A stretch of DNA of 64,000 nt from Picocystis sp. L7 (Eukaryota; Chlorophyta; Picocystophyceae; Picocystales; Picocystaceae), in contig QXJR01000003.1 in assembly GCA_020975725.1 (NCBI GenBank), forward strand, positions 1,302,001-1,366,000. Direction: 5' to 3'. The notes under the pieces were generated by a model. That model was given only the letters and a program-made list of their open reading frames with translations. It did no database searches and was not told the DNA's origin. Below are positions 1,156-32,139 of this stretch, piece after piece. Position numbers and translations under genes: made by a program. Each line of letters begins with the position of its first letter. Positions within the stretch are counted from its first letter, which is position 1.

Positions 1156-1607
1156 TGTTAGAGGATGTGATCAATATCCTCAGTGGATTCTGATTCAGTG
1201 GGTCAGGCACAGGGCAGCTTGAGTGGCAGGTGTTGATAACACGTACGGTCGCGATCCGTTGACGTGTAGTGGCAGTCGGCGATGGTCGAGGACGCTTGAG
1301 TTCGCGGCTGTGACGAAACACTTCGTGGCATGCAAAAACTGAATTACAGGTGAGCGCGCGAGAGCTTATATAGTGCTCTTGAGCGAGTACTACGAGGTCA
1401 CGTGCCGTGGAAAAATCCGCAGGCTGACGTGAATCTTGAAGGTCTTCTTTGCTTGGCTATGGGGTTCCTGTGAGGGCGTCCTTTTCCTTGACGTCGTCGG
1501 GGGTTCCGTCTCGAGTCCTTGGATTCTCTGGTTTTGGCGGGTCCATGGTTCGTCCCTTGGCTCTTGTCCCAGGTTGAAACCCTAGTCCAGAAGGGATATT
1601 TCCAACA
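1156..1607 (-). repeat. Copia LTR (3' copy in element sense)
   Basis: 452 bp, identical by eye to 5430-5881. The end of the Copia reading frame lies inside it (to 1457). Confidence 0.96.
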
Positions 1608-4600
1608 CTCCCACTCATCCTGGTGCAAGAGTCATTCATTCCAAGTTGTTGGATGCATTCTCTGAACTTTTTGCTTGTAAGTTGCTTGGTCAGGTAATCG
1701 GCCCACATTTCTTCAGTGGGACAGTAGATCAGTTTTACTTCCTCTCTCATTGCTCGCTCTCTGATGAAATGATGCTGCACATCAATGTGCTTGGCCTTTG
1801 TTACTGATTGTGGGTTTTTCAGTAATCGTAGTGTGGATTGATTGTCGATGTGTACTAACACTTCCACTTGGTTGATTGTCAATAGCTGTTGGATGAAGTT
1901 TCTTATCCAGAGGCCTTCTTTAATTGCTGCAGCTGCAGCCTGGTACTCTGCTTCAGTTGTGGAGGTTGCGATGGTAGGCTGGAGCTTGCTCTGCCATGAT
2001 ACGAGTCCTCCCATGACTATGATGGCATAGCCTGTTCTTGATCTTCGGCTGTTTCTGTCTCCAGCATAATCTGCGTCGCTGTATATGGTGACTGTCAGCT
2101 TTTCTTTCGGGTCTTCATGAGTTGCTCTATATGTCAGTTTCATGTTTTCAGAACCTTTGAGATACTTGAGCGTGCCCCGCAAAGCCTTCCAGTGAGTTCG
2201 TTTGGGGCTGCTGTTGTATCTGGCAAGTGCTGATGCTGCCTGCACTATGTCAGGTCTGGTGGTCCCGCTCAGGTACTGTAATTGTCCCACTATTCTTTGG
2301 TAGTTGTTGTGGTCTACTGTCTCTTCTGTTTCAGTGTCGATCAGTGGTACTGATAGTGGGATGCTATTAGGTTTGCAGTCAGTTACTTTATGATCTATCA
2401 GGTATTCCCTTACTTTGTTTCTTTGGTCCATGTTTAGAGTTCTGCTCTTCCGGTCTCTGTTAATGGTGATTCCCAGAAAGGTTTTTGCTTCTCCCAGGTC
2501 TGTCACTTTGTAAGTTTCTTTTATGGCACCCTTTATCTTTTGGATGATTTCTATGTTCTTGCTGGCTATCAGTATATCGTCAACATAGAAGCACAGATAA
2601 CAGTCTCCTTGGTTAGTCATGCATTTCAGCACACTTGGATCCACTTCAATGCAATCAAATCTCAGTTGTTTGAGAGTGTTAGTCAGTTCCATGTTCCATG
2701 CTCTTGGTGCTTGCTTGAGTCCATATAGGCTCCTGTTAAGCTTTAAGACTTTGGTCTCTTGGTCCACATGCAGTCCACAAGGTATTTTTAGGTAAACTTC
2801 CTCTTCCAATTGTGCGTTGAGAAATGCAGTTTCTATATCCATCTGGTGCAGCTCCATGTCCATTTGATTGACTGCTGCAAGAAAGATTCGCAGACCTGTT
2901 TTACTGACCACAGATGCGTAAATTTCTTCATAGTCTACTCCAGGTCTCTGGTGGCATCCCAGTGCCACCAGTCTTGCCTTATACTTGGTAATGTTGTTCT
3001 GGCCATCGCGTTTCACTCTGAATATCCATTTTGATCCAATGGCCTTTTTGTTTTTGGGCAGATCAGTGATTTCCCATGTTCTCATTTTTGATAATGATTC
3101 TAACTCGCTGTTGATTGCTTCTGTCCACAGGTCCTTGTCAGGTCTGTTCATGGCCCTTTGGTATCCATCGAACTTGTCAGGTAGGCTGTTTACTGTTAGA
3201 GCTGTGAAGTTTCTTTGTCTGTTCGGTCTGAGATCATACCTCTTGACATGTTCTTCTTTCTTTTCTTCAGTTGGGTCACTTTCACTGCTTTCTGCATCAT
3301 CTGTGTCTGATGATTCCTCCCACTGATCTGGTTCATTTTTTAATTCTTCTTGGAAGGTAAGTTCAGTTGGCTCATCTGAGGGTCTTGTATATACACCCAT
3401 GTTTGATTCTATGAATCTGACATTTCTGCTGGTGACCATTCTGTCCTCCAGCAGTACACGATATGTTGTGGAATTTTCATATCCAATGAATATTCCTTTT
3501 TCACTTCTTGGTTCGAATTTTCCAGTTTGTTTTGGCACTGGTTTGAGTACCCAAGCTTCACATCCAAAAACTCGGAGATGTTTTATGGATGGCTTTACCC
3601 CACTGAGAAGCTCAAGGGGAGATTTGGTTTCTTCTGTGTGGGTTGGGGGCAGTCGGTTTCGCACATGTACATAGGCCCTTACTGCCTCACCCCAATATTT
3701 TTTGGGTAAGTTTGTTGCGTTGAGCATTGAGCTTGCATGCTCTCGTATGTCACGATGCAATCGTTCTGCATCGTTCTGCTGGGGTGCGTATCCAGCGGTT
3801 CTTTCGTGCACTATTCCTCGATCTGACAAGAAATCTGCGAGCTTTCTGCCCAAGAACTCCTGGCCTTGGTCCGTTCTGATGGCTTTTACTTTGCTGGTGC
3901 CATTGGACTTTCTCTCAAGCGTGGTGATAGCAGCTCTTGCATATTTTCCAGCTTGTCCTTTACCTTCCATAAGGTATATGAGTGTTGTTTTGGTTGCATG
4001 GTCCAAAACGGATAGGTAGTAATGCTGGTCACTAGGTGTGGGTGGATGTATGGGTCCTACCACATCCATGTACAGTAAGTCCAGTGGCTTATAATGGTAA
4101 TTTTTGGGTTGAAACTTTGTTGCTGACTGTTTGTTTGCAATGCATGTCTCACATGGGTCAGTCAATTTGTATGGTACTCTCAGTTTTCTCAATCGTTCTG
4201 CGTGCACATGGCCCAGTCTTTGGTGCCATGTTTTAGCTGTGGCCTGCAGGCAATAGTTTGCTGACTCGTTTGCCTTTGCTTGCAGTTTCAAATGATTGTG
4301 CCAGATAGTGCACAGACCTCTTTTGAAATTCACTGTGGCTCCTTTGCTAACCATGCAGTTCACAGACAGCAGGTTTGTGGTCAGCCCAGGTATGTAGAGG
4401 ACATTGTCCAGTTCAACAGGTGGTGAATGTTCATCCTTCAGTGTAAGTCTCACTTTTCCTCTGCATTCAGATTTCAGTTGTGATCCGTCAGCAATTACGA
4501 TCGAGGTTTCGTATTCTTCAATGGTGCTGACCTCTAGGTACTCCTTGTTCCCGGTCATGTGCCAGCTGGCTCCGGAATCTATTATCCAGTTGTCATCGTT

Positions 4601-5398
4601 TTTGGTTTCTATTTCTGGTCCTCCAGCCATGAGCGCCATTGACTTTGCATTTGTTCCATTCAGAGTTTTGTCTCCGTACTTCCTGGTTCTTGGTGGGTAG
4701 TCTCCTTTGAATTTGAAGCAGTTTTGGAGTGTGTGACCAGTCTTATGGCAGTATTGGCAGGTAATCTTCTCGCCGTCAACTTTCTTCTTGTCTTGGGTCA
4801 CATAGGCGTTTCCTTTCTTTAGGTAACTTTCTTCATATGTGAGGGATTCCCTCACTTTGGCCATAGTAAGTTTGCAGTGGTAGTGCTTCAACACTACTGT
4901 CACCGTGTGGTAGTTGGCAGGCAGTCCTTCCAGTACTGCACTTGCCATTTCTTCTTCACTCAAGTCTACATTTACTTGTCTCAGTTCATCAACTATTTGG
5001 ACAATAGTGTTGATGTATTGGTCAATCGATTGGTCATGATGCTTTTTTGCCTTGTTGAGTTTCTGCCGAAGTTCTGTTTCACGTTGCTGACCTGTCTGTT
5101 GATACAGGTTCTTCAAGACTGTCCATACTTGATGTGCAGTGTCACATCTTGTGATGTGACCACTGTATTCTGAGTTGACACAGTTTATGATGAGGCATCT
5201 AGCCTTCTGAACTTTTCCATAAATACAGTTGTCTTCCATCTTCATATCTCCATTTTCTTCCATCTTGATATCTTGTTCATTAGAGGTCACATCCCAGAGA
5301 TTGTGGATCCTGAGATAGTTCTCCATTCTCAGGAACCATTGTCTCCAATTTGTGCCGTCTAGTTCAGGTACTGCTGATGCTCCTGCTGGATCAGTCAT
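1457..5398 (-). CDS. Copia gag-pol polyprotein
   Basis: Fossil-type entry, part of the Copia element. A single frame of about 1313 residues in canonical Copia order: gag (UBN2/DUF4219 type), CCHC knuckle (CQYCHKTGHTLQNC), aspartic protease (WIIDSGASWHMTG), GAG-pre-integrase (WHQRLGHVH), integrase core, reverse transcriptase (YVDDILIAS) and RNase H (SDADYAGD, TSTTEAEYQA). Protease, then integrase, then reverse transcriptase separates it from Ty3 elements. The frame is open throughout, and its last ~50 codons are encoded by the LTR itself. Confidence 0.96.
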   Translation of the reverse strand: MTDPAGASAVPELDGTNWRQWFLRMENYLRIHNLWDVTSNEQDIKMEENGDMKMEDNCIYGKVQKARCLIINCVNSEYSGHITRCDTAHQVWTVLKNLYQQTGQQRETELRQKLNKAKKHHDQSIDQYINTIVQIVDELRQVNVDLSEEEMASAVLEGLPANYHTVTVVLKHYHCKLTMAKVRESLTYEESYLKKGNAYVTQDKKKVDGEKITCQYCHKTGHTLQNCFKFKGDYPPRTRKYGDKTLNGTNAKSMALMAGGPEIETKNDDNWIIDSGASWHMTGNKEYLEVSTIEEYETSIVIADGSQLKSECRGKVRLTLKDEHSPPVELDNVLYIPGLTTNLLSVNCMVSKGATVNFKRGLCTIWHNHLKLQAKANESANYCLQATAKTWHQRLGHVHAERLRKLRVPYKLTDPCETCIANKQSATKFQPKNYHYKPLDLLYMDVVGPIHPPTPSDQHYYLSVLDHATKTTLIYLMEGKGQAGKYARAAITTLERKSNGTSKVKAIRTDQGQEFLGRKLADFLSDRGIVHERTAGYAPQQNDAERLHRDIREHASSMLNATNLPKKYWGEAVRAYVHVRNRLPPTHTEETKSPLELLSGVKPSIKHLRVFGCEAWVLKPVPKQTGKFEPRSEKGIFIGYENSTTYRVLLEDRMVTSRNVRFIESNMGVYTRPSDEPTELTFQEELKNEPDQWEESSDTDDAESSESDPTEEKKEEHVKRYDLRPNRQRNFTALTVNSLPDKFDGYQRAMNRPDKDLWTEAINSELESLSKMRTWEITDLPKNKKAIGSKWIFRVKRDGQNNITKYKARLVALGCHQRPGVDYEEIYASVVSKTGLRIFLAAVNQMDMELHQMDIETAFLNAQLEEEVYLKIPCGLHVDQETKVLKLNRSLYGLKQAPRAWNMELTNTLKQLRFDCIEVDPSVLKCMTNQGDCYLCFYVDDILIASKNIEIIQKIKGAIKETYKVTDLGEAKTFLGITINRDRKSRTLNMDQRNKVREYLIDHKVTDCKPNSIPLSVPLIDTETEETVDHNNYQRIVGQLQYLSGTTRPDIVQAASALARYNSSPKRTHWKALRGTLKYLKGSENMKLTYRATHEDPKEKLTVTIYSDADYAGDRNSRRSRTGYAIIVMGGLVSWQSKLQPTIATSTTEAEYQAAAAAIKEGLWIRNFIQQLLTINQVEVLVHIDNQSTLRLLKNPQSVTKAKHIDVQHHFIRERAMREEVKLIYCPTEEMWADYLTKQLTSKKFRECIQQLGMNDSCTRMSGSVGNIPSGLGFQPGTRAKGRTMDPPKPENPRTRDGTPDDVKEKDALTGTP

Positions 5399-6044: not shown

Positions 6045-9000
6045 TCATAGCTGAAAGTCATAGACATAGGCCAGAGGATCGTAGAGCATACCCTTGACCT
6101 GCTGCTCGCTGTACGATTCTGTCTTTCCATCTGTCCACATTACTTCCAATTGTCCTCCACTGTCGTTGGTCACCACTCCCTGATAGTATGCAGATTTGTG
6201 ATCTCCCATGTGGAAGAACTCGTGTACCACACAGCCAAGCAGGTTGACTGGCATAGTCACTTTGGGCCTGCGTCGGGTTTGGTACGGCAGTTTCACGTAA
6301 GTCCAGGTGTTCACCATTACAGGTTCTGGCGATTGGAGGTATACTGTTTTCTTGTGTGTCCTGACAGCATCATAATTAGTTGGGCTGATGCCCTGCTCAG
6401 GTATACATCCATTGTTTTCTTCGAGCGGTAAGAATTCCTCCAGCAGGGTGGAAGTTTCATCCACCCAAAAGAAGCGTTGCGATGCATCGGCCAGGTTGCT
6501 TTCAATCCAGTAACGCACGGGGCACGTAGGAAATACAGAGTAGTCCCGTAACAAGTATCGTCGAATACGATAAGCGGCGGCTTCATTTTGCATGGCTGCA
6601 CTATCCGGTAGCGGCGCCGTAGCAGGTTGCGTATGCTCGTCCATGGGGAAGAGAGTAAGATCTGAATCTACCCAATGTTCCAATCTGTTGGCATGGATAC
6701 GGTCTGCAAAGGAAGAGCCTGGTGGTAGGTCCAGTTGGTAGGCTCCATTCTTCAGCACTTTCTTGATGAGGTAAGGACCTACAAAGTAAGGGTCCAATTT
6801 GTGTTTGTCAGTGGGTCCCTTGAGCCCATACTGAACTTTTACCTTGTCACCCACAGCAAAGACCTTCTTCGGTCGGTGCGCAGTTGCTTCAGCCACTTTC
6901 TGTGCAGCCTTCAACAGATTCTCCTGCACAGCCTGATACACAGTGCGGTGTTGTTCCAGCAAGGTTGTAACTCTCCTGTCAAAAGTTGTGACCGTTTGAT
7001 TATCAGCAGTTCCATCCCTTCTGGGTAGTTGAAGGTGCCATGGTAACCTGGATTGGCAGCCGTACAGTAGCTCAAAAGGGGAGTGCTTGGTAGCATCATG
7101 CACGGTATCATTGTATGCATGTGCTGCTGCTTGCAAGTATTGATCCCAATGATGTTTGTCAGCACAAGTTGTTCGGAGGGTCTGCAGCAGCGTACGATGT
7201 TGCCGTTCAGCACCACCTTGTGACTGCGAGTGATACGGTGTCCCCGTAACATGACGGGCACCCAACGCTGCGCAGAATGCTTGGAACAGCGCTCGATAAG
7301 CCGGTCCATTATCTGTATGGATATGCACAGGTGTGTGAAACCTGTTAATTAAATTGTCCATGAGACATTGAGCTTGTCTATGAGCACTCCAGGTGGAGTG
7401 GATGGGTATATAGATAGCATATTTGGTAAATCTGTCCACTACTGTCAGCACTGCGTTGTGACCCAGAACTGTAAGGGGCAAGTTCTCCACCATGTCCAGC
7501 ACCACTGTGTGGAATGGGTAAGGGTAAAACCTCATCTCAGGACAGAGTGGTATGTGTCGTAACCGGTTACCTGGTTTCTGAAGCTGACAGGCAGGACAGC
7601 GAGCGACGAAGTGCTCGATGTGCGATCGAATCCCAGTCCAGGTGAAATGTCGCTTGGCGTCTGCGAGCGTACGGGCTGATCCAAAGTGTCGATGATCGTG
7701 TACCATGTGCAGCAACTCCTGTCGTAGAGCGTTATCTGCTGGTACCACCAAAACTGGTTGAGCGTTTGTCGATTGATCGAACAGCAAACCATCGCGAACA
7801 GTTGTGCCCTCTGGCGGTGCGTCCAGTAATTTCTGGTAGTCAGGATCCGCTTTAGCGGCGACGCGAATTCTGTCCAGTATGGGAGGTAACTGACCAGTAA
7901 GACCTGTACGCAACGATTGCGCTGATTGTTGATCTGTAATAGACGCGATTGACCCACACACAGTCCCAGCAGGACTGCGGCCGGCTAGCAGTCGAAGCGT
8001 CCGTGTGTTGTTCAGCCATCGGTGTAACATGTGTGCAATCCAACCCATGGGGAAGGCGTTGCCGCACATGCGCTGCCGGCTGGTTTCGCTGACGTTGAGC
8101 GCTGCAGTGTCACCAACCTGCATACCGACGAGTCTTTCTCGCTCGCTGATGGTCAGCGGGCGTAGAGTCCCATCTTGATCGTGCACCCAGGTGGAACGTG
8201 AACGGTCGCTGTGCGAGCGTTCGCTGGCCATTAAAGTGGGGCACTTCAAGCGGGGTTGATTCAATGCGTCTAACGGCACCTTTGATCCAGGTTCTAGACA
8301 ATCCTGCCAGGTCATAGGTGTTGCCCCCCTGTGTTCAGGCTCATGCTTGAGGGGTGGTAGAGAGGTCCAGCACAGCCGGACTCGCGCTTGCGCACAATAC
8401 TTTGAGAGGTCTTCACATATGGGCTCTCCAAACCAGTGTGCAATCTTGTCCAGGTGGGTCTTCAAGTGCGCCGCAAACGGCGTGCATTCCAATATGTAAT
8501 CAGGCGATCGCAACCGTTCGTATATTTTTGCTACTGCTGTGAACAGTTCGCGCGTATCGTACAACCCAAGCGGCGGTTTCGAGGGATCGGTGTTCGCCCT
8601 CGAGAATGGCTGACAGGGCACCCCAGCAATCAGCAGGTGGACTTGGGGGAGCTTCCGTCGATGCGCCAAGGCGGTCACATCGTCTCCATAGCGAAAGATG
8701 TCCTTACGTGTAAACAGGCCAGGCCGTGCCAAGCGAACCTGATGAAACACACGTGCGATCACGCTGCAGCAATCCTCATTCTCTTCCACTGCGATGTAAT
8801 CCAAAGTAATGTTGCTTGATTCTGGTATCGCATGTTCCAGCGCACGCAAGGTGGTTCCCATACCTGCACATAAGTCCAGAATGCAGTACGTATCGGTGTC
8901 GTTGACCTTGGCTGAGTGCCTGGAAAGGTAATCAGGTCCAACATTCTCTGTGCCTGGTCTGTACTCCACCTTGAACGGGGCGAAGTATGCCAGCTTTTCG

Positions 9001-10787
9001 ATCCATCGCATTTCGCGCGGTGACAACTGCTCCGTAGCCTTTGTTCCAATGAACTGACTGGCCTTGTTGTCAGTGATGACAGTAAACTGCTGGCCAAACA
9101 GGAGGTGTCTCCAATGCTGCAGTGCATACAATATTGCACAGGTCTCTTTCTCAGCAGGATGATAGTTTTGCTGAGCTGTGTTGAATTTCTTAGACCAAAA
9201 TTCTACAGGATGCCAATTTCCTTGGTGATCCTGTTGCATTAAGGCTGCTCCCATTCCCACATCTGAAGCGTCGGTTTCGACCCGTATAGGTCTGTCCTCA
9301 TCGAAAAGCGCTAGTACAGGTGCTGTGGTCAGGGCTTTAATCAGTTCTTGATAGGCATCCTCCTGGGGCTCCTTCCAGTAGGATGCGAAGCCGTGCTTCA
9401 GGGCTGCTTGATTCAATTCAGTCAACGGGGCCGCCCGTTCCGCATAGCGAGGAACGAATCGCATGTAAAACTGGCAGAGTCCAAGGAATGCCATGTTTTC
9501 ACGCTGCGTGCGAGGACGCGGAAACTGTTTGATCTTGGACAGCAGGTGATCGGTGCACGCGAGCTGACCGTTGCGAATGGGGAACCCAATCCATTCCAGT
9601 GTACTCATGAAAAAGTGGCATTTGGACCTTTTCAACCTAATATCGGCACGATCGCAGGTGGCAAAGAACTCTTCAAGATGTTTGAAGTGTTCTTCAACTG
9701 TTTCTGAGTGGACAAGGATGTCATCCATGTACACTTTTAGGTACAGTAGATGACCAAACACCCTGTTCATCATACGTTGGAACATCGCGGGTGCGTTTGC
9801 TGCCCCCATGGGCATCACCTTCCATACAAACGAACCGAATGGGGTGACGACCGCTGTCTTGTCGATGTCGTCAGGGTGCATACGGATCTGGTGAAACCCA
9901 TCCAGGGCATCAAGCGATGAGAAGTACTTGGCTCCTCTGAGGTTTTGTAAGTAATCATCGATCCGCGGCAGCGGATATCTGTCTTTGATGGTTACATTGT
10001 TCAGCAGGCGATAATCGAAAACGACTCGCCATCCCCCATCCTTTTTTGGGACCAGGATCACTGGGGCACCCCAACTGGATCCTGCGCATAGGTCCATCTT
10101 TCCAGCCTCAACATACTCGGTCGCCAGCTCTTTGAGGGCAGTCTGCTGTTGGGGGGATAACCTATAGTAATTTCTGTATTGCGGAGTTGCTCCTTCCTCC
10201 ACCTGGATCTTGAATGTTTCGCCCGGGACACGTTCCGGAGGCAGTTCTGTACGGGGCTCGAATAAATGCTTATACTGCTTGTTCAACAGGTCATCGAGCC
10301 GCTGTCGATGAGCGTCGTCCAGGGGCCACTCATCGCTAACCTGGTTGTGCATGCTGCCAAAGTCTGAGTCTTCGCTGATGAGTTCCGGCGTTTTGTCCAC
10401 AGGCTGAATCATGAGGAGTAGGCAGCCAGGCTTCTTCACCGCTTTACGTGCTTCGCTCCTGGGCACGATCAGGTCCAGTTTTCTTGAGGCAATGAACTGG
10501 TGGTCTCCGTAGACAGTAAATTTTGTGCCATGGTTGTTTCGCAGCACCATGCGGTGATTCTGCCAGTCCAGTGCTGTCAAGTGCTTATGACAGAATGTGG
10601 CTCCTAGAATACAGTCAAATGTTTCTAAGGGAGCAACTCCGAAGTCGATGCTGGATTGGAATCCATCGATCGAGAATCGAGCCTTTATTACTGGGGCAGT
10701 GTGAACCTGCTGGCCCACAGCCACGCTGTAATTGAAGGCTGTTGTTGTATACTGCCAGGACAGACCCTTTGGGTCAGCTTGCTGCAA
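6045..10787 (-). CDS. Ty3 pol with embedded cytosine-5 DNA methyltransferase
   Basis: Fossil-type entry, part of the Ty3 element. About 1580 residues in one open frame. Order: retropepsin-like region near the start (ILGATF), reverse transcriptase with YMDD at about 353-356, RNase H from about 500 (ETDAS at 504), a cytosine-5 methyltransferase at about 634-935, HHCC zinc-binding module at about 1025-1075, DDE integrase core to about 1200, GPY/F-like region near 1336, and a Tudor-like C-terminus from about 1516. Methyltransferase signatures: motif I LDLCAGMGTT (637-646), motif IV GVPCQPFSR with Cys725, a motif VIII-like QARVR, and motif X GNAFP (909-913). The order and the region before motif X look closest to the DNMT3/DRM side, which is an impression, not a phylogeny. 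Confidence 0.93.
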   Translation of the reverse strand: MQQADPKGLSWQYTTTAFNYSVAVGQQVHTAPVIKARFSIDGFQSSIDFGVAPLETFDCILGATFCHKHLTALDWQNHRMVLRNNHGTKFTVYGDHQFIASRKLDLIVPRSEARKAVKKPGCLLLMIQPVDKTPELISEDSDFGSMHNQVSDEWPLDDAHRQRLDDLLNKQYKHLFEPRTELPPERVPGETFKIQVEEGATPQYRNYYRLSPQQQTALKELATEYVEAGKMDLCAGSSWGAPVILVPKKDGGWRVVFDYRLLNNVTIKDRYPLPRIDDYLQNLRGAKYFSSLDALDGFHQIRMHPDDIDKTAVVTPFGSFVWKVMPMGAANAPAMFQRMMNRVFGHLLYLKVYMDDILVHSETVEEHFKHLEEFFATCDRADIRLKRSKCHFFMSTLEWIGFPIRNGQLACTDHLLSKIKQFPRPRTQRENMAFLGLCQFYMRFVPRYAERAAPLTELNQAALKHGFASYWKEPQEDAYQELIKALTTAPVLALFDEDRPIRVETDASDVGMGAALMQQDHQGNWHPVEFWSKKFNTAQQNYHPAEKETCAILYALQHWRHLLFGQQFTVITDNKASQFIGTKATEQLSPREMRWIEKLAYFAPFKVEYRPGTENVGPDYLSRHSAKVNDTDTYCILDLCAGMGTTLRALEHAIPESSNITLDYIAVEENEDCCSVIARVFHQVRLARPGLFTRKDIFRYGDDVTALAHRRKLPQVHLLIAGVPCQPFSRANTDPSKPPLGLYDTRELFTAVAKIYERLRSPDYILECTPFAAHLKTHLDKIAHWFGEPICEDLSKYCAQARVRLCWTSLPPLKHEPEHRGATPMTWQDCLEPGSKVPLDALNQPRLKCPTLMASERSHSDRSRSTWVHDQDGTLRPLTISERERLVGMQVGDTAALNVSETSRQRMCGNAFPMGWIAHMLHRWLNNTRTLRLLAGRSPAGTVCGSIASITDQQSAQSLRTGLTGQLPPILDRIRVAAKADPDYQKLLDAPPEGTTVRDGLLFDQSTNAQPVLVVPADNALRQELLHMVHDHRHFGSARTLADAKRHFTWTGIRSHIEHFVARCPACQLQKPGNRLRHIPLCPEMRFYPYPFHTVVLDMVENLPLTVLGHNAVLTVVDRFTKYAIYIPIHSTWSAHRQAQCLMDNLINRFHTPVHIHTDNGPAYRALFQAFCAALGARHVTGTPYHSQSQGGAERQHRTLLQTLRTTCADKHHWDQYLQAAAHAYNDTVHDATKHSPFELLYGCQSRLPWHLQLPRRDGTADNQTVTTFDRRVTTLLEQHRTVYQAVQENLLKAAQKVAEATAHRPKKVFAVGDKVKVQYGLKGPTDKHKLDPYFVGPYLIKKVLKNGAYQLDLPPGSSFADRIHANRLEHWVDSDLTLFPMDEHTQPATAPLPDSAAMQNEAAAYRIRRYLLRDYSVFPTCPVRYWIESNLADASQRFFWVDETSTLLEEFLPLEENNGCIPEQGISPTNYDAVRTHKKTVYLQSPEPVMVNTWTYVKLPYQTRRRPKVTMPVNLLGCVVHEFFHMGDHKSAYYQGVVTNDSGGQLEVMWTDGKTESYSEQQVKGMLYDPLAYVYDFQL

Positions 10788-28980: not shown

Positions 28981-29130
28981 ATGAACTCGATCCGAGTGAA
29001 CCAGAGGGATGTGAACTCGATCCGAGTTAAGTGGAGGGATGTGAACTCGATCCGAGTGAAGTGGAGGGATGTGAACTCGATCCGAGTGAAGCGGAGGGGT
29101 TGTGAACTCGATCCGAGTTAAGTGGAGGGG
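28981..29130. repeat. 30-bp minisatellite between Iwr1 and exonuclease genes
   Basis: Five copies of a unit based on GTGAACTCGATCCGAGTTAA with a GTGGAGGGAT tail. GAACTCGA recurs at 28983, 29013, 29043, 29073 and 29104, so the spacing is 30 bp with one 31-bp unit. It fills most of the 254-bp gap between divergent start codons and ends about 15 bp before the exonuclease ATG. Confidence 0.93.
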
Positions 29131-29145
29131 TTCCGTGTGGGAGCG

Positions 29146-30936
29146 ATGGCGATGGCGCACGAGTTGGAGGCGCAGCACGAGGAGGAGGAGGGGGAAATCG
29201 TGGGCGAAACGAGGGTGGGAGAAGACGCACCGAAGAGGAAAAGAGAAGGGGAAGAAAACACGCCCAGAAGGAAGAAGAAAAAACAGAGGAAAAGAGTGGA
29301 ACAAGGCAAAGGAAACGCACAGGACTACGTCGACGTCTATGGACCTGATGCAAGGGCCGCGATCGAACTCAGGCACGACGGAGAGGCCTTGCGCGTCCTG
29401 GACTTGCAAGGATTGCTGCTCTGGGTTCTGGGCGATGGTATGAGCCCGAAATGGGCGTTCGTGAGGAACAAGCCCCTCGTCCGACGTGTGGTCATGGTTA
29501 TGGCCAGCGGACTGGACATGGGACTGATCGAGAGGAAAAAGCATCTCATGGAAAGGACGATGGAGGTGCTCGGAAAACCTCTCCCCTTCGCAGCGGTGGC
29601 ATCGACGGCAAACACCACGGCAACCATCGGTTCCCTGTTGAGCGTGCAGAGAAAGCGCAAGCAAAAGGAACAACTGGTCAAAATCAACCGGGAAGCTAGA
29701 CCGCCTCTCCCACCAACGCACTACACCATGTCTCCGGCAGAACTGAAAGACAACAACTATCCCATCCCCATATTGCTGGAGGATCAAACGCTAGCATGCC
29801 CAGAAGGTTACGTGGCGACCCAGCCTGCCGGTAAGCTAGCACCCGGATCTCCTGGAGCCCCCGCGTATGCAATGCTTTCTCTGGACTGTGAAATGTGTTA
29901 CACCAAGAACGGATTGGAACTCACGAGGGTCACGGTTCTTGACGAGAACCACAAGGAAGTGTACGACCAATTCGTTCAGCCCGAGGATCCCATCCTTGAC
30001 TACAACACGAAGTACTCCGGGATCACTGCCGAGACGCTCAACGGTGTGACGAAAACCTTGCACGAAGTTCAGCTGGACTTCTTGCGTATCGTGGCGCTGG
30101 AGACGATACTAGTTGGTCATTCCTTGGAGAACGATCTTTGCCAACTGAGAGTGATTCATCCCAACGTCGTTGACACGTCCCTCCTGTACCCGCATCCGAG
30201 GGGACCCCCTTTCAAGCCAGGTTTGCGGTTCCTCACAGAGAAATTTCTGGGCAGAAAGATTCAGGAGGAGACCCATTGCTCTGCACAGGATGCCAACGCC
30301 GCGATGGAACTGGCTTTGTTGAAGTTTCAGAACGGGCCAACGTTTGGAGAGATCAAGCAGGAAGGCGAGCCGTTGCTGGAGCTTTTGGCACGTCTGGGAC
30401 ACACTTCTTCCCTGGTGGACAGAAGGCACATTTTGCACAAATTTGCATCTGGGAACGCGAATGCCATTGTTTGTGGTTCAGACGATGACGTGGTTGCCAA
30501 ACTGAAGCAGGAAGCAAGCAACGGAAACGCAACGTTCATTTGGGGTCATTTGAACGGGCTCAGCGAATTCTACAACCAGCGGATGAAGGAGCGCCAGTTT
30601 GTAGCCCATCACGGCGGCTCCTTGCTGGAGCACTGCACGACCCCGGAGAACCTCGCGAAACGTTTTGAGGAGGAGGAAAAGACCATCGACTCCATCTTGG
30701 TGACCATCGATCGTCGCATCGCGGAAATATACGATCACGTGGAGCCCAACACGCTCGTGATGGTGACATCTGGTCATGGCAACACAGCAATGGTGAAGAA
30801 GATGATGGAGGAGCGGCACAAGAGAAAGCAGGGTGTTTTCGACTTGCCCGGTTGGACAGACTGGTGCGAGGAGTTGCTCACCCAGTCCGTGAACGAAGCC
30901 AAGCGGGGCCTTTGCTTCGTGTCCATGAAGCAATGA
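29146..30936 (+). CDS. REX1/SDN-type 3'-5' RNA exonuclease (DEDDh)
   Basis: 596 residues. Members of this group (yeast Rex1, animal REXO1/REXO5, plant SDN5-like) trim 3' ends of 5S rRNA, tRNA and small RNAs in the nucleus. Catalytic residues visible: LDCEMC with Asp247 and Glu249, GHSLENDL with Asp330, HCSAQDA with His377 and Asp382. A lysine-rich N-terminal stretch (PRRKKKKQRKR) is a likely nuclear or nucleolar signal. The C-terminal 200 residues are a family extension that could include an RNA-binding fold, which I could not identify. The start at 29146 is preferred, as earlier in-frame codons lie inside the minisatellite. AATAAA at 31014. Confidence 0.9.
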   Translation: MAMAHELEAQHEEEEGEIVGETRVGEDAPKRKREGEENTPRRKKKKQRKRVEQGKGNAQDYVDVYGPDARAAIELRHDGEALRVLDLQGLLLWVLGDGMSPKWAFVRNKPLVRRVVMVMASGLDMGLIERKKHLMERTMEVLGKPLPFAAVASTANTTATIGSLLSVQRKRKQKEQLVKINREARPPLPPTHYTMSPAELKDNNYPIPILLEDQTLACPEGYVATQPAGKLAPGSPGAPAYAMLSLDCEMCYTKNGLELTRVTVLDENHKEVYDQFVQPEDPILDYNTKYSGITAETLNGVTKTLHEVQLDFLRIVALETILVGHSLENDLCQLRVIHPNVVDTSLLYPHPRGPPFKPGLRFLTEKFLGRKIQEETHCSAQDANAAMELALLKFQNGPTFGEIKQEGEPLLELLARLGHTSSLVDRRHILHKFASGNANAIVCGSDDDVVAKLKQEASNGNATFIWGHLNGLSEFYNQRMKERQFVAHHGGSLLEHCTTPENLAKRFEEEEKTIDSILVTIDRRIAEIYDHVEPNTLVMVTSGHGNTAMVKKMMEERHKRKQGVFDLPGWTDWCEELLTQSVNEAKRGLCFVSMKQ

Positions 30937-31141
30937 CACGTTTCCTTGTGTTGGGACAGGCTCCGGGGTGATTCCATCCCCATCTCGTGGTTTCTATTTT
31001 CGAGACACACGTCAATAAATCAAAAGGCGCGAGCTCCGTGCACATCATCCCCCACGTGCACGTCCGCCCTGGTCCGACCGTTCCAATCGAATACACCAAA
31101 ACCGGACGCAAAAGAGAAGTGTCACATCGACCGAGGATGTT

Positions 31142-31306
31142 TTCTAGTCAATCTCCTTAACCGCTCGGACATATCTGCCATGCTGAACGTCTCGTTCAGC
31201 CATTGATGCGTGTGCCTTGGTTCCTCTCGAACGAGAGACACCGAAGGATGTGTGGGAAACACGCAGACACCAGGACTCGAACCTGGGCGGGCAGAGCCCA
31301 ATTGAT
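31142..31306 (-). tRNA. Permuted tRNA-Ser(AGA)
   Basis: On the minus strand the 3' half comes first (31306 down to 31262), then an 83-nt spacer (31261-31179), then the 5' half (31178 down to 31142). Joined 5'-3' they give an 82-nt tRNA. The acceptor stem GCAGATA/TGTCTGC has 7 pairs including one G-U, with discriminator G73. The D-stem is TCC/GGA. The anticodon stem ATTGA/TCAAT is perfect, with loop CTAGAAA and anticodon AGA. The long variable arm is GGGCTCTGCCC, and the T-arm CCAGG-TTCGAGT-CCTGG is perfect. The pre-RNA ends form a bulge-helix-bulge: CTAG pairs with CTAG, flanked by 3-nt bulges AAA and GGA. Cutting after the second base of each joins positions 37 and 38, the canonical intron site. 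Box B therefore precedes box A. A TTTT run follows near 31110. Confidence 0.93.
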
Positions 31307-31485
31307 CCCTAGAAAGTTTTCGGGTAGAAACCTGTCCTCAGCCAGTGACACAGACAGGGGTTGTCCAGGTCGGGGGCAAGAAGGTATAGGTAAGCTCCGA
31401 GCATCGAGAGGATCCAGGTGGACTCGTGATCGGATCGGCATCGACGTGGCGCACATCGAGACGTGCGAGGCGGATTGGAGGCGCC

Positions 31486-32139
31486 ATGGCGACGCATGCG
31501 ACGGTGAAATCCGTCCACAGGAACGTGCAGGAGAAGGGAAAGGAGGTGGAACGGTCGGTGTCGGGATGCAGGGGCTTGCAGCGACGCGCGGCCTTGGCCT
31601 GGTTGCTGCCTGCGACGGCGAGCTACGCCTTGGCCTCGCCATCACGTGCTGCGGTGGGATTCAAGAAGACGATCACGCCCAGGAGGAGGAGCTCGCCTGC
31701 CGAGGTGCAGGAATTCTTCCAAGGCGCGCAAGAAGTGGGCGGTGTCCCTGTGCGGGACCTCCAGGAAGGCGCGGGAAAAGAAGCACGCGTGGGCGACTCC
31801 GTCGTGGTGCATTTCGACTGCTTGTTCCGCGGTCTGGACGTCGCGTCCAGTCGCGAGGCGAGGCTTTTGGGGGGCAATCGAACCATCTCCGAACCGTACG
31901 AGTTCATCGTTGGCGACAGGCTCGAAGACGTGCTGGAACGAGCGAATTTCTCCAGCTCGACCAAGAGCGGAGGTCCCAAACCGCCACCGGCGCTGTTCTT
32001 GGCCACACAAGGCATGCGCGTGGGTGGAAAGCGATCCGTGCTGGTGCCGCCAGAGCTTGGATATGGAGACAAGGGATACTTGGAGATCCCTGCAGGCGCC
32101 ACGTTCGAACTGCAGGTGGAGCTGTTGGACGTGCGCTGA
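31486..32139 (+). CDS. Thylakoid-lumen FKBP-type peptidyl-prolyl isomerase
   Basis: 217 residues. FKBPs catalyse cis-trans isomerisation of prolyl bonds, and many plant members reside in the thylakoid lumen. Seen here: a basic N-terminus followed by a twin-arginine plus hydrophobic stretch, RRAALAWLLPATASYALA, and an Ala-x-Ala-like cleavage site (SRAA), which fits a chloroplast transit peptide with a Tat lumen signal. The FKBP domain follows (VHFDCLFRGLDVASSREARL, then PYEFIVGD, then GGKRSVLVPPELGYG). The arrangement resembles plant FKBP18/FKBP16-type lumenal proteins. The start at 31486 has context GCGCCATGG. Isomerase activity is not assured, because many lumenal FKBPs have diverged active sites. 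Confidence 0.85.
   Translation: MATHATVKSVHRNVQEKGKEVERSVSGCRGLQRRAALAWLLPATASYALASPSRAAVGFKKTITPRRRSSPAEVQEFFQGAQEVGGVPVRDLQEGAGKEARVGDSVVVHFDCLFRGLDVASSREARLLGGNRTISEPYEFIVGDRLEDVLERANFSSSTKSGGPKPPPALFLATQGMRVGGKRSVLVPPELGYGDKGYLEIPAGATFELQVELLDVR

Follow-up and report, generated by a model that had tools for sequence, protein, structure and literature searches.

Within the 64-kb stretch of DNA analyzed here (the window), positions 31142-31306 of the minus strand, an exact extent, carry the two halves of a tRNA-Ser(AGA) in reversed order. The features of the gene, its flanks and the two neighboring open reading frames (ORFs) are collected in Table 1. CCA is not encoded in the 3′ half, and the discriminator base is G. 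An earlier note on this DNA had proposed a permuted tRNA-Ser(AGA) gene with its 3′ half upstream of its 5′ half, an 83-nt spacer between them and box B ahead of box A, and the coordinates bear out the arrangement on each of these points.

Table 1. The permuted tRNA-Ser(AGA) gene and its surroundings, in window coordinates.
Feature	Position	Strand	Remarks
3′ half of tRNA-Ser(AGA), positions 38-73 (45 nt)	31262..31306	−	comes first in the gene; carries the long variable arm and the T arm
Spacer (83 nt)	31179..31261	−	links positions 73 and 1 in the pre-tRNA; without a run of four T
5′ half of tRNA-Ser(AGA), positions 1-37 (37 nt)	31142..31178	−	encoded second
Anticodon AGA	31145-31143	−	inside the 5′ half
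End of leader	31307..31312	−	CTAG at 31312-31309 is the partner of loop positions 32-35; next come the two G of the GG^A bulge
CTAG, loop positions 32-35	31144..31147	−	pairs with leader CTAG; AA^A comes next
Box B (GGTTCGAGTCC)	31273..31283	−	read 31283-31273; upstream of box A
Box A (TGTCCGAGCGG)	31161..31171	−	read 31171-31161
TTTT, candidate Pol III terminator	31110..31113	−	28 nt past the 5′ half
Flanking ORF	29122-30936	opposite to the tRNA gene	no Pfam match; taken by eye to be a Rex-type exonuclease
Flanking ORF with FKBP domain	31426-32139	opposite to the tRNA gene	

When the two halves are joined between positions 37 and 38, ARAGORN calls the resulting 82 nt as a complete tRNA-Ser(aga). 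The stems of the reordered molecule pair as had been claimed: the acceptor stem forms 7/7 pairs and the anticodon stem 5/5, the D stem has 3 bp, and both the T stem and the long variable arm are formed. In the unjoined 64-kb window no tRNA was called, either by ARAGORN or by Rfam at the gathering score, and with the Rfam threshold relaxed, the 661 bases surrounding the gene gave three weak matches, none of them a tRNA. A single locus judged by eye could mislead, and the halves might be tRNA-like pieces brought together by chance or reversed by misassembly. A structural scanner for permuted tRNA genes, applied to both strands of the window, found one match, the Ser(AGA) gene; on 40 Markov sequences of 64 kb, each scanned on a single strand, it found nothing. 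This scanner was designed after seven permuted genes were already known; over 93 examined loci, many of them overlapping (304,867 bases), it matched only in the 12 loci that contain those seven. With the same design and a matching junction helix present at seven separate places, chance or artefact is an extremely improbable explanation. Judged by its sequence, the segment is a type II (37/38) circularly permuted tRNA-Ser(AGA) gene.

The six further genes of the same design lie elsewhere in the 20.5-Mb, 30-contig genome, of whose contig C1 the window is positions 1302001-1366000, and specify Ser(CGA), Leu(TAA), Ala(CGC), Ala(AGC), Pro(TGG) and Pro(CGG), with spacers of 44, 43, 42, 28, 71 and 98 nt, respectively. 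ARAGORN calls all seven with the expected anticodon once their halves are joined; run on the unjoined loci, it did not report these genes, so that the tRNA genes of comparable small algae may have been undercounted. A DNA search of the genome with the joined Ser(AGA) gave four matches: an ordinary Ser(TGA) gene (contig C22), the two halves in the window, and a 3′ half on contig C10 that is part of the permuted Ser(CGA) gene. A gapped Ser/Leu pattern identified two places, Ser(CGA) again and the permuted Leu(TAA) on C5; one gapped Ser/Leu pattern gave one match each in collections of viral contigs and of genome contigs, both of them adjacent ordinary tRNA genes. A class I 5′-half motif occurred at 14 places, of which the five inspected comprised permuted Ala(CGC) (C6), permuted Ala(AGC) (C26), a 5′ exon of Tyr and two non-tRNA sequences. 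Finally, a probe of nine plant tRNAs produced 11 matches, four of which are the halves of Pro(TGG) (C28) and Pro(CGG) (C26). A covariance model of artificially permuted class I tRNAs (R1) was dropped: its best scores, 25.3 and 22.7 bits, fell on an ordinary Lys locus, it missed both serine genes, and it covered only a portion of Leu(TAA), scoring 14 bits. Only 37/38 joins were found, in searches aimed at that type, and genes with other joins could be missed; as the census is also incomplete, seven is a lower bound. The same incomplete census of this genome holds at least 31 ordinary nuclear tRNA genes (Tyr included) and no nuclear gene for Gln, elongator Met, Pro(AGG) or some Arg, Val and Leu isoacceptors.

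The splice junction had been described in the earlier note as a canonical bulge-helix-bulge. Its elements stand: leader CUAG and loop bases 32-35 (CUAG) form a 4-bp helix between the 3-nt bulges AA^A and GG^A, the join falls at 37/38, and the helix and bulge lengths (4 bp and 3 nt) obey the splicing-endonuclease rule. The strict motif does not stand, because UUU in the leader faces AAA. With the helix thus able to lengthen to 7 bp (CTAGAAA/UUUCUAG), neither the second bulge nor an outer helix is assured, and the junction is of the relaxed hBH type, the form given for green algae and nucleomorphs in a 2014 review (PMC3978253). Across the seven genes, the junction helices pair at 27/28 positions (25 Watson-Crick) through differing sequences, namely CTAG/CTAG, CTCG/CGAG, TTCG/CGAA (two genes), TTAG/CTAA, TTTG/CGAA and CTTA/GGAG, the one mismatch being in the helix of Leu(TAA). 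Sliding the register gave a mean of 11.8 pairs and a maximum of 18 over 99 registers, compared with the 27 observed. Swapping leaders among the seven genes gave a mean of 21.6, and 27 pairs were reached in 6/5040 arrangements, as expected because three leaders share CGAA; the high mean signifies that much of the pairing is shared by all loops, and the gene-specific part therefore rests on few positions. Under the same junction rule, the introns of ordinary genes form 4/4 pairs in Tyr(GTA) and 3/4 in initiator Met, an ordinary gene with an 18-nt intron. The nuclear Tyr(GTA) gene, on contig C23, has a long intron of 202 nt at 37/38.

Computed folding provides a point against a functional permuted gene: the predicted energy optimum of the Ser(AGA) pre-RNA is not a cloverleaf, keeping 5/24 target pairs and lying 6.2 kcal/mol below the constrained cloverleaf fold. 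Across the seven pre-RNAs, the optimum retains between 0 and 18 target pairs, and the constrained fold lies 0.1 to 9.2 kcal/mol above it.

A trans-split gene would have the same junction motif, and some archaeal split halves are encoded close together (PMC3978253), so the halves might instead be separate neighboring transcripts that are paired and spliced in trans. In all seven genes, however, the halves lie on one strand, 28-98 nt apart; none has a run of four T between the halves or elsewhere inside the unit, and each has one 24-66 nt after the second half. Random window positions satisfy both demands (150 nt without such a run, then 71 nt with one) in about 9% of cases. As far as sequence can tell, the 7/7 pattern supports one transcription unit, and we consider a split tRNA very unlikely. 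Two points on the other side come from Leu(TAA): its leader has a run of four T at −49, and its junction helix the mismatch noted above.

How such a unit is started was approached through its upstream and downstream signals. TATA-like sequences are reported within 50 bp upstream of most permuted genes of Cyanidioschyzon merolae; green-algal members need not have one, and for some of them only an ambiguous AT-rich region is described (PMC3978253). In the Ser(AGA) gene the closest upstream TATA is at −82, beyond the first 50 nt, which counts against the proposed gene. With a TATA within 100 nt upstream in only 2/7 permuted genes (5/30 ordinary genes have one within 60 nt), an upstream TATA was rejected as their general driver. 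Two other candidates also failed. An extra downstream box B that would restore the A-to-B order was sought as GTTCRANYC on either strand of the seven trailers, over 141-200 nt, and did not occur; an extra upstream box A is present in 1/7 leaders, that of Ser(AGA) at −38, the background rate being 7.6% per 120 nt. The 130-nt flanks of 30 ordinary nuclear tRNA genes (7,550 bases) contain GTTCRANYC 8 times, at 7/30 genes, compared with 11 times in the 64-kb window, both strands counted; these could be extra TFIIIC sites. The longer GGTTCRANYCC occurs 787 times genome-wide (380 + 407), compared with 142 (67 + 75) for the reversed pattern, and many among the places listed are the palindrome GGTTCGAACCC.

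The genome also encodes candidate machinery. Two proteins have a tRNA intron endonuclease domain, one nearest by sequence to solved Sen34 chains and the other nearest to Sen2. A 1629-aa ORF contains a B-block TFIIIC domain (41 bits, cut-off 22), with a GTF3C1 match below the cut-off (21, compared with 30) and no match among solved structures. Since the B-block model also matched in 8/14 prokaryote control genomes, in 4 of them above the cut-off, assignment of the protein to TFIIIC as a subunit is probable but not proven. C. merolae differs here: homologues of TFC1 and TFC3 are reported as not identified in that alga, for which TATA-directed transcription has been proposed (PMC3978253).

Permuted genes are proposed to originate by duplication followed by loss of the outer halves (PMC3978253), and the locus could accordingly be an unexpressed relic of a tandem duplication, while a different locus supplies the tRNA-Ser(AGA). 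Against this, every stem is intact, as is the junction, and no other Ser(AGA) gene was found. The earlier note had called for a check that no unpermuted copy exists; the DNA search with the joined tRNA found no contiguous Ser(AGA) elsewhere in the genome, and a Ser/Leu 5′-half motif with one mismatch allowed occurred at 21 places, which ARAGORN, scanning them all, resolved into Ser(GCT), Ser(TGA), organellar genes and a single spurious call of an Arg gene with an intron, with no further Ser(AGA). In eukaryotes, UCU and UCC are normally read by inosine-34 of tRNA-Ser(AGA). These codons are frequent here: TCT and TCC make up 136/317 serine codons in five long ORFs of the window. Given that no unpermuted Ser(AGA) was found and that UCU and UCC are common, the permuted gene is probably functional and, as their usual reader, probably essential, and a relic is highly improbable. 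A second copy, divergent or unassembled, is possible.

We are thus highly confident in a functional nuclear type II circularly permuted tRNA-Ser(AGA) gene whose product would mature by Sen cleavage, ligation and a circle. RNA polymerase III would produce a single RNA comprising the leader, 3′ half, 83-nt spacer, 5′ half and a trailer up to the T run. The substrate of the Sen2/Sen34 endonuclease, which would cut after position 37 and before position 38, would consist of the anticodon stem, the GGA bulge and the CTAG/CTAG helix; a ligase would join 37 to 38, giving a circle with its acceptor end closed by the spacer; and RNase P and tRNase Z would remove the spacer before CCA is added. The observations made here are the sequence anatomy, a junction helix that seven genes maintain with differing sequences, the lack of any unpermuted copy among the sequences found, and the Sen2- and Sen34-like genes; transcription, the circle, end processing and charging are extrapolated from published work on other algae.

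As a kind, permuted tRNA genes have been known since 2007. The earlier note's list of carriers, a few small algae, some archaea and nucleomorphs, is incomplete, as Auxenochlorella has them too (PMC12636532, preprint PMC12633428); that green-algal nuclear genome is of similar size, and a standard search of it likewise gave an incomplete tRNA set (PMC12636532). The 2014 review counts 34 permuted genes with spacers of 1-74 bp (PMC3978253), a maximum exceeded here by Ser(AGA) (83 nt) and Pro(CGG) (98 nt). Close in kind are Ostreococcus and Micromonas (Maruyama 2010, via the table of PMC3978253), in which the genes are likewise green-algal and nuclear, with a 37/38 join and an hBH motif. Permuted Ser(AGA), Ser(CGA) and Leu(TAA) are listed for M. 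pusilla, and all three are permuted here, although the M. pusilla Ser(AGA) spacer is 64 bp, shorter than the present one (PMC3978253). In contrast, Cys(GCA) is permuted in several Ostreococcus and Micromonas species and ordinary here, the ordinary, intron-bearing initiator Met gene sets this genome apart from the same comparison set, and permuted Ala(AGC), Ala(CGC), Pro(TGG) and Pro(CGG) do not appear in the 2014 table (PMC3978253).

The chlorarachniophyte nucleomorphs of B. natans and A. amoebiformis share the same two type II isoacceptors, Ser(AGA) and Ser(CGA) (PMC3978253, PMC4494063). The spacers of B. natans are 5 bp, including that of its listed permuted Ser(AGA), far from the 83 and 44 nt of the pair here (PMC3978253); for the pair in A. 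amoebiformis, permutation in the green ancestor of the plastid has been postulated (PMC4494063). In C. merolae (Soma 2007, via PMC3978253) the halves are likewise reversed around a BHB-type junction; a circular intermediate was demonstrated there, and four join positions are known in that alga, compared with 37/38 here (PMC3978253). Relative to the literature compared, the novelty lies in these members, the two spacer lengths and the set; no report linkable to this genome was found in the literature searched, and prior publication is possible.

Whether permuted tRNA genes are ancient or of recurrent origin is a debated question (PMC3978253), for which a further green lineage with the permuted serine pair, together with Ala and Pro cases, offers a comparison. 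The pair would fit an early origin. A wider scenario, in which the Ser(AGA)/Ser(CGA) pair goes back to a single ancient rearrangement, inherited from an early green alga and retained in Micromonas, the chlorarachniophyte nucleomorphs and here, with permutation later spreading to Ala and Pro, and in which Pol III with TFIIIC accepts the order box B - box A instead of using an upstream TATA, is tentative, and we think it rather less likely than its contrary. Since it has a probable TFIIIC B-block protein and places box B before box A, this alga could also reveal how Pol III initiates on genes of this kind.

The remaining sequences examined concern the genome and its surroundings. SufB, encoded in the window, is 82-86% identical to its counterparts in Pyramimonas and Micractinium and is green-algal. 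Contig C30 (26% GC) is, by eye, the plastid, with ndh, chl and photosystem genes; the best named identities of its ndhD, among the best 120 of 8000 matches, are 65% (Chlorokybus) and 64% (Nephroselmis astigmatica), and in a tree of 17 chosen sequences it stands beside Nephroselmis at 88/88, below the support mark. Contig C29 (66% GC) looks mitochondrial by eye; its tRNA clusters recur as direct copies (shifts of 37,159 and 80,888) and as inverted copies, and the contig may run on beyond one full turn of a circular molecule. The window also contains two retrotransposon ORFs, both on the minus strand: a Copia-type ORF of 1313 aa (1457-5398) with gag, integrase and reverse transcriptase domains, and a Gypsy-type ORF of 1580 aa (6045-10787) with reverse transcriptase, RNase H and integrase domains, in which a match to a C-5 cytosine DNA methylase lies between RNase H and integrase.
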